64,000 nt of DNA from Terebella lapidaria (Eukaryota > Annelida > Polychaeta > Terebellida > Terebellidae), in NCBI GenBank assembly GCA_949152475.1, contig OX424568.1, positions 4,873,667 to 4,937,666 of the forward strand, read 5' to 3'. Positions within the stretch are counted from its first letter, which is position 1. Each line of letters starts with the position of its first letter. The position numbers were made by a program, and so were the translations under genes. Of the stretch, positions 35,844-64,000 are shown one piece after another. The notes below the pieces were generated by a model. The model saw only the letters and a program-made list of their open reading frames with translations. It did no database searches and had not been told where the DNA came from.

Positions 35844-35995
35844 TTAGTACGTGGTCGGACAACACACGCCGTACAATCCGTAGGGGTGGACATTACATTC
35901 ATAGCCATGTGGGCACATGTTGTACGTGCAAAAGGAACATTCCACCTCCTCGCCATAGTCATCAGTCAGGGGCTTTCCGTACGGGCACTTGTTCA
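35844..35995 (-). CDS. Gene B exon B1: terminal, Lustrin-like cysteine-rich domain and stop
   Basis: Follows acceptor TCGTTTGCAG. The 50-residue tail reads [20 protein letters not shown], then [13 protein letters not shown] and [11 protein letters not shown], then TAA. The order C-P-x-G-x-P-L, C, C-P-x-G-Y-x-C and V-C-C-P fits the Lustrin-type cysteine domain known from mollusc shell matrix and other invertebrate secreted proteins; seven cysteines are present here. No EGF pattern. The 3' UTR holds AATAAA at 35768. Confidence 0.8.

Positions 35996-64000: not shown

Follow-up and report, generated by a model that had tools for sequence, protein, structure and literature searches.

The window, i.e., the whole stretch of 64,000 nucleotides analysed here, corresponds to C15:4873667-4937666 in the 762-Mb genome of Terebella lapidaria and contains two convergent genes rich in EGF exons. 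On the minus strand, 70 EGF exons modelled as phase 1-1 carry 71 calcium-binding EGF (cbEGF) domains. The features are listed below with the eight-cysteine exons, hereafter called markers, and the exons preceding them, numbered -1 and -2 by their distance from the marker.

35844..63916, minus strand: window portion of the cbEGF super-repeat gene, 71 EGF domains in 70 exons plus the last exon; the gene extends upstream in the genome
35844..35998, minus strand: last exon (B1), Lustrin_cystein PF14625 (39.7 bits, cut-off 27) and stop at 35844
63671..63916, minus strand: single exon with two EGF domains (B72, B71); the next unit has 13 domains in 12 exons
59908..60075, minus strand: eight-cysteine marker B62
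55408..55575, minus strand: eight-cysteine marker B50
51117..51287, minus strand: eight-cysteine marker B38
46131..46304, minus strand: eight-cysteine marker B26
42712..42879, minus strand: eight-cysteine marker B16
39751..39918, minus strand: eight-cysteine marker B8
61057..61565, minus strand: exons -2 (YMGNG) and -1 (DVNEC) before B62
55880..56565, minus strand: exons -2 (YMGDG) and -1 (DVNEC) before B50
51543..52034, minus strand: exons -2 (YMGDG) and -1 (DVNEC) before B38
46703..47115, minus strand: exons -2 (YMGDG) and -1 (DVNEC) before B26
43179..43575, minus strand: exons -2 (YMGDG) and -1 (DINEC) before B16
40200..40716, minus strand: exons -2 (FMGDG) and -1 (DVNEC) before B8
240..22766, plus strand: convergent paralogue with 38 EGF exons and markers at 6302 and 15244
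5721..6472, plus strand: paralogue trio of a GYMGSG exon (5721), a DVNEC exon (6008) and an eight-cysteine exon (6302-6472)
13884..15414, plus strand: paralogue trio of a GYMGSG exon (13884), a DKNEC exon (14301) and an eight-cysteine exon (15244-15414)

The calcium-binding and hydroxylation consensus fits all 70 EGF exons of the minus-strand gene in the window, and across the whole gene 112 of 114 domains combine a D-x-D/N-E-C start with the hydroxylation consensus. EGF_CA scored above its cut-off in each of four EGF exons scanned with Pfam, and by consensus and Pfam scan the gene is a calcium-binding EGF array (PF07645). The exon shared by B72 and B71 is a local intron loss or fusion. Towards the 3' end, two of the last EGFs (36222-36347 and 37996-38124, minus strand) have extra cysteines ahead of the second canonical cysteine, and a seventh cysteine is found in several exons elsewhere. 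An 85-bp tandem array (36786-37545; 8.9 copies at 98%) derives, by eye, from the second half of EGF exon B3 with its splice donor and runs into the following intron; a donor-like GGTGAGT is present in every copy and the unit length is not a multiple of three. Between the two genes, an open frame of 1,032 codons (28517-31615, minus strand) looks by eye like a LINE-type endonuclease/reverse transcriptase.

The original prediction placed six eight-cysteine exons at B62, B50, B38, B26, B16 and B8, spaced by 12, 12, 12, 10 and 8 exons, and our counts agree: successive markers are separated by 11, 11, 11, 9 and 7 ordinary EGFs, and the three 12-exon units (U1-U3) measure 4,500, 4,291 and 4,986 bp from marker start to marker start. 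A seventh exon, B4 (37996), also has eight cysteines, but its extra cysteines lie near the start and it is distinct from the markers. The alignment describes each marker as a normal cbEGF followed by a tail bearing C7 and C8, with a tyrosine content of 12.7% versus 6.1%, which would suit a putative role in cross-linking. The AlphaFold2 model of the marker, computed with eight sequences, has a pLDDT of 83.8 and a pTM of 0.55, the tail (about 89-91) being among its best parts; compared with known structures by Foldseek and a structural aligner, it returned mainly EGF-type folds, all as weak matches. Like fibrillins and LTBPs, the gene has long cbEGF arrays interrupted by eight-cysteine domains, and many of its database relatives are named fibrillin-like, so that one may think of a microfibril gene of this type whose marker is a TB domain. 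The TB domain of fibrillins and LTBPs has a CCC motif. Unlike it, none of the 11 markers of the whole gene contains CCC, TB is absent among the 25 families listed by Pfam for the eight marker copies of the window, and all eight match EGF_CA; we therefore rejected the marker as a TB domain and regard the probability of a fibrillin/LTBP-type gene as close to negligible.

The motif F/YMG[DN]G, predicted to be private to position -2, occurs in six of six exons at that position and in no other exon of the minus-strand gene in the window; taking both window genes together, [YF]MG[DNS]G is found in 8/8 exons at -2 versus 0/101 others (p 2.6e-12). At -1, DVNEC opens five of six exons (B63, B51, B39, B27 and B9), B17 has DINEC instead, and the only other DVNEC of the gene in the window is in B13. 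For the first four of these, both a DVNEC start and an ending of the TGDGxTCT kind had been announced; the start is present in all four, but the ending occurs in B51, B39 and B27 and not in B63.

The plus-strand paralogue is more acidic and Asp/Asn-rich, the minus-strand gene richer in Tyr, His and Lys, and the two markers of the paralogue are 18 domains apart. Because both genes carry the same -2/-1/marker cassette, the cassette is probably older than their split. Upstream of the paralogue lie an antistasin exon (27 bits) and, by eye, a WAP-like exon, and no terminal exon was found between 22.8 and 35.8 kb by cysteine content or Lustrin pattern. At 240-2702, 8274-8831 and 17599-19633 (plus strand), this gene has near-identical DDDECAND...GSGTEC exons, three of them identical in protein; they are a recent single-exon amplification, with tandem periods of 290 bp and 429 bp at 17.6-18.9 kb. 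An intron-sized gap of the same gene (20.2-21.7 kb) holds a CGTCCGT microsatellite and tandem arrays of 359 bp and 134 bp.

With the neighbouring stretches added, the whole minus-strand gene comprises 114 EGFs and 11 markers, spaced by 8, 7, 8, 12, 13, 12, 12, 12, 10 and 8 domains. The marker expected about 12 exons upstream of B62 is present, 13 domains but 12 exons away since one exon holds two domains. Over the whole gene, the -2 motif is found before nine of 11 markers versus none of the 103 other domains, and the -1 start D[VKE]NEC also before nine of 11, plus three other places; the cassette is broken at marker 4953222, lacks the -2 motif at marker 4946567 and is not recognisable at the most upstream marker. 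Exons at the gene ends belong to three further families: in addition to the terminal Lustrin_cystein, there are WAP (PF00095; 35.3 bits, cut-off 20.8) and antistasin (PF02822; 44.7 bits, cut-off 21.2) exons upstream of the EGFs, where a second antistasin exon (18.5 bits) and an N-terminal Lustrin-like exon (16.9 bits, cut-off 27) stay below their cut-offs. Their order and strand lead us to infer that splicing joins these upstream exons to the EGF array, and a signal peptide was not recognised in the product. At about C15:4972.9-4984 kb, a third gene combines one marker and its cassette with three exons that look antistasin-like by eye. The contig also holds, some 240 kb away from the gene of the window, nine Lustrin_cystein matches within 29 kb (C15:4641423-4669876).

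Exons group by their distance from the marker and not by adjacency. The grouping is strong at -1, -2, -3 and -4, weak immediately behind the marker and not seen in the middle of the unit. In the window, p values per offset, uncorrected for the number of offsets, are < 0.00025 at -1 and -2, 0.00075 at -3, 0.0035 at -4 and 0.076 at -5; offsets -6 to -8 give no signal, and -9, -11, +1 and +3 lie between 0.012 and 0.04. For the whole gene, they are < 0.00025 from -1 to -3, 0.0045 at -4 and 0.015 at -5, and after the marker only +2 (0.036) and +3 (0.022) fall below 0.05, +1 now being at 0.37. In the tree of the 71 domains (41 columns; 49 of 68 inner branches open), the six markers form one clade and the six -1 exons another (one change each; SH-aLRT 97 and 84), while -2 exons need two changes, -3 exons four and -4 exons five. 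When the plus-strand domains are included, the eight -1 exons need three changes and the eight -2 exons five, whereas shuffled labels need about 7.8 on average and never fewer than 6. The commonest lag between nearest neighbours in the window is 12 (12 of 71 domains), lag 1 occurring in three, and grouping by adjacency, the outcome that would have spoken against the original prediction, did not occur. The pairs named in support of it are of unequal value: B11/B29 are reciprocal best matches, B12/B45 rank 2nd/1st, B19/B41 2nd/2nd and B20/B54 4th/3rd, but B13/B58 is weak (4th/8th).

The 12-domain period is also visible when the exons are compared by lag. Protein similarity in the window is highest at lag 12 with all exons, where lag 24 stands out too, and without the markers; removal of the markers, -1 and -2 moves the peak to lag 14 and leaves lag 12 at only +1.5 sd. 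Protein and DNA scores combined put lag 12 first, with and without these exons. An order-preserving alignment of the five units against shuffled order gives a joint z of 8.6, and of 4.1 without -1 and -2, in which case only two of 10 unit pairs beat shuffled order at p < 0.05; in U1-U3, positions 2 and 4-7 have little or no offset signal. In the window, the three best four-domain diagonals lie above the 95% level obtained from 60 shuffles. In the whole gene, each of the 12 best such diagonals joins stretches at equal distance before the marker (-4 to -1 or -5 to -2); the highest scores 5.96, above anything seen in 40 shuffles (maximum 5.31, maxima averaging 3.92), and the next, at 5.30, falls just short of that maximum. 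Lag strength in the whole gene is +4.9 at lag 12 (+3.6 without markers, -1 and -2) and +3.5 at lag 25 (+3.2), and nearest neighbours are led by lag 12 (nine) with lag 2 next (seven), a weaker lead than in the window. Lag 2 itself rises from +1.2 to +3.0 when markers, -1 and -2 are left out, and adjacency thus plays some part in the whole gene. Several close pairs, such as B29/B58, B33/B35 and B72/B32, break the offset rule; in the last of these, B72 lies 40 domains from its closest relative (about 81% in DNA) and does not share its offset.

A signal concentrated between -4 and 0 and lost at mid-unit is what one would expect if blocks had never been copied and only the cassette (-2, -1 and the eight-cysteine exon) had been selected or re-inserted among arbitrary exons, and the range of spacings, from 7 to 18 domains with the plus-strand gene included, fits this idea as well. 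Silent sites, measured as the fraction of identical codons at residues identical between both copies, argue against it. In U1-U3, of all lags from 1 to 24, lag 12 has the largest such fraction (0.47, and 0.48 even without -1 and -2), lags 24 and 13 coming next, and the fraction amounts to 0.466 for exons at the same offset versus 0.363 at other offsets (p 0.0004). Positions 1-7 alone still give 0.44 versus 0.344 (p 0.0013), and the difference is without significance for positions 8-9 alone and 10-11 alone; in the whole gene, the peak is weaker (0.39-0.40 at lag 12, with 0.40 likewise at lag 38). Selection acting on a position would not be expected to show at silent sites, and the result therefore favours copied blocks. 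Together with the sister loci described below, this makes it unlikely, in our view, that the cassette alone accounts for the pattern.

The blocks of the window gene are old. Comparison of its DNA with itself had been suggested as a means to recognise them, yet similarity is restricted to exons, the tandem arrays apart: the longest direct match is the marker pair B26/B38 (180 bp, or 131 bp under stricter settings), most of the longer exon matches are about 71-82% alike, and intron lengths have neither correlation nor periodicity. Since nothing is alike beyond the exons and intron lengths are uncorrelated, block sizes of 4.3-5.0 kb are no evidence in themselves. The claim that the gene grew by copying blocks keeps its other support, i.e., offset similarity with silent sites, the upstream marker and young blocks in paralogues, but loses this one. 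Close single-exon pairs devoid of intron similarity (B29/B58, B11/B29 and B72/B32) may bring to mind gene conversion among equal positions, which would maintain offset similarity in place of old block duplication; two of these three pairs are at unequal offsets, and we know of no factor that would make conversion respect the offset. An error of assembly in the order or number of repeats has also to be considered, as tandem repeats mis-assemble easily and two sister loci, on C14 and C17, are up to 93.4% identical over 5 kb and may include haplotype copies. The contig measures 34.3 Mb, and introns that cannot be aligned outside the tandem arrays, between exons as divergent as those of the window gene, make collapse or false expansion unlikely there; we hold an artefact to be extremely improbable.

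Search of its own genome with the marker exon returned at least 52 matches on C15, C14, C17, C7 and C1, a lower bound as 150 of 240 candidates were scored, and some of the weaker ones are ordinary EGFs. In the fetched parts of the sister loci (L021, L022, L024 and L025), duplications of several ages are preserved. The C14 locus at 9.60 Mb has three consecutive 12-exon blocks with 4,526, 4,514 and 4,635 bp between equal markers, and its longest self-match, introns included, extends over 6,871 bp (95.3%; shift 4,527). Each 4.5-kb block contains four eight-cysteine exons, the markers being 2, 3, 3 and 4 exons apart, and because this layout differs, its 12-exon length is not the unit of the window gene. 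This dense marker locus (L021 and L025; C14:9599001-9619000), with blocks up to 95% alike, is a good place for the study of block duplication. On C17, markers 12 exons apart lie within a self-match of 4,217 bp at 88.1% (shift 3,524). The C14 locus at 9.83 Mb has units of 10 and at least 13 exons with matches of 83.5-88.4%, among them 3,693 bp at 88.4% (shift 4,099). Both the C17 locus and the latter also have shifts of about 277 bp, i.e., one exon plus intron, at 76-80%. Tandem duplication therefore takes place at two levels in this gene family and carries the introns along, and mid-unit exons come and go in the young loci. Whole blocks copied in this way speak against a role of the cassette alone, and their passage through introns against conversion, which appears improbable to us. 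The original prediction further held that units U4 and U5 had lost internal exons (positions 6-7, and 3 and 6-8, respectively); this is not supported in that form, B21 of U4 being the reciprocal best match of B56, at position 6, and gain is as likely as loss because the sister loci vary in unit length and contain near-identical internal exons.

Taking into account the observed domains, their periodicity, the cassette and its presence in the convergent paralogue, and the young block copies with their introns, we consider it probable that the product of the gene is a giant matrix protein, probably secreted, and that the gene has grown by tandem duplication at two levels, with cassettes marking the block ends. 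Single EGF exons with their introns would duplicate side by side, and multi-exon blocks, often of 12 exons (about 3-4.6 kb in young loci), would duplicate whole, the end of a block being a cassette from about -4 to 0 that terminates in the eight-cysteine EGF. In fibrillin and Notch, cbEGFs form stiff rods with calcium. By the consensus of its domains, the protein may likewise be a calcium-stiffened rod, which the tyrosine-rich marker with its putative extra C7-C8 pair would interrupt as a joint or cross-link site. The terminal modules (WAP, antistasin and Lustrin) could serve to protect the protein, or to anchor it, within a secreted layer, for instance an adhesive, a mucous sheath or the cuticle. 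An adhesive, mucous or cuticular matrix role is our best guess. It is tempting to go further and propose that the period itself is selected, about 12 cbEGFs serving the protein as a ruler that sets the length of the rod from one joint to the next; 12-exon blocks would then have been adopted independently by different genes of the family. Five of the ten intervals of the window gene are 12 or 13, one interval of 12 exists on C17 and three 12-exon blocks at C14 9.60 Mb; intervals of 7, 8, 10, 13 and 18 occur beside them, and we regard such a ruler as rather doubtful. A single genome harbours stages of several ages, from block copies that are 95% alike with their introns, through copies at 88%, to an old gene recognisable by exon offsets only, and this opens the way to direct tests of how giant matrix proteins grow, of selection on unit length and of the role of the marker. 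Should it belong to an adhesive or a sheath, the protein would represent a natural calcium-tuned segmented fibre.

We gathered 193 related proteins from three protein searches, one of which listed 120 of 2,221 matches. In a pattern scan of 127 of these relatives, repeated [YF]MG motifs and an eight-cysteine EGF never occurred together in one protein. A marker profile gave 123 full-length matches in the 193 proteins, the best (37.7 bits) being one domain of a sponge protein (P0069), and by eye many of the other matches are ordinary EGFs that continue into the domain behind them. Five pattern matches with an EGF and a C7-C8 tail occur in P0080, a bacterial EGF protein named as a Myxococcota bacterium MAG protein. 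In the literature searched and in these scans of 127 and 193 proteins, we did not meet a marker-capped unit of about 12 cbEGFs in young and old form in one genome. The relatives include, by name, adhesion protein 1 of the flatworm Theama mediterranea (P0013).

Several marine adhesives offer points of comparison. The sea-star proteins Sfp3, Sfp4 and Sfp8 are EGF-rich adhesives, Sfp3 reportedly combining repetitive EGF-like domains with WAP/antistasin, and repetitive EGF-like domains of footprint proteins are linked to a fibrous meshwork (PMC9382459). Scallop Sbp9 has 49 EGF-like domains (PMC6244088) and reportedly assembles via calcium and disulfide (PMC13348336), and mussel Mfp-2 is named as another marine EGF-rich adhesive (PMC13348336). 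Our gene shares with these secreted adhesives the EGF arrays and, with Sfp3, the WAP/antistasin modules, a likeness at the level of EGF similarity (PMC9382459, PMC6244088); unlike Sfp, Sbp9 and Mfp-2 as described in the passages cited, it has a periodic eight-cysteine marker and a 12-domain unit. With Lustrin A and the mollusc shell WAP/antistasin proteins it has in common the Lustrin_cystein, WAP and antistasin modules, but the giant cbEGF array sets it apart from the shell proteins, described in the passages cited with WAP and antistasin (PMC3374290). Drosophila Dumpy is a known example of a giant modular EGF protein in which a second module recurs periodically, here a 21-residue DPY module arranged in EGF-DPY-EGF triads and accompanied by ZP and transmembrane domains (PMC2930355). 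Among the exons scanned with Pfam (five including the last exon, eight markers and five upstream exons) no ZP was detected, the last exon consisting of Lustrin and stop. Like Dumpy as described there, the protein would be a giant extracellular EGF protein with a second module at regular intervals and repeats at more than one level (PMC2930355); unlike in Dumpy, this module is itself an EGF with a two-cysteine tail, placed mostly every 12 or so cbEGFs, and WAP, antistasin and Lustrin exons lie at the ends.
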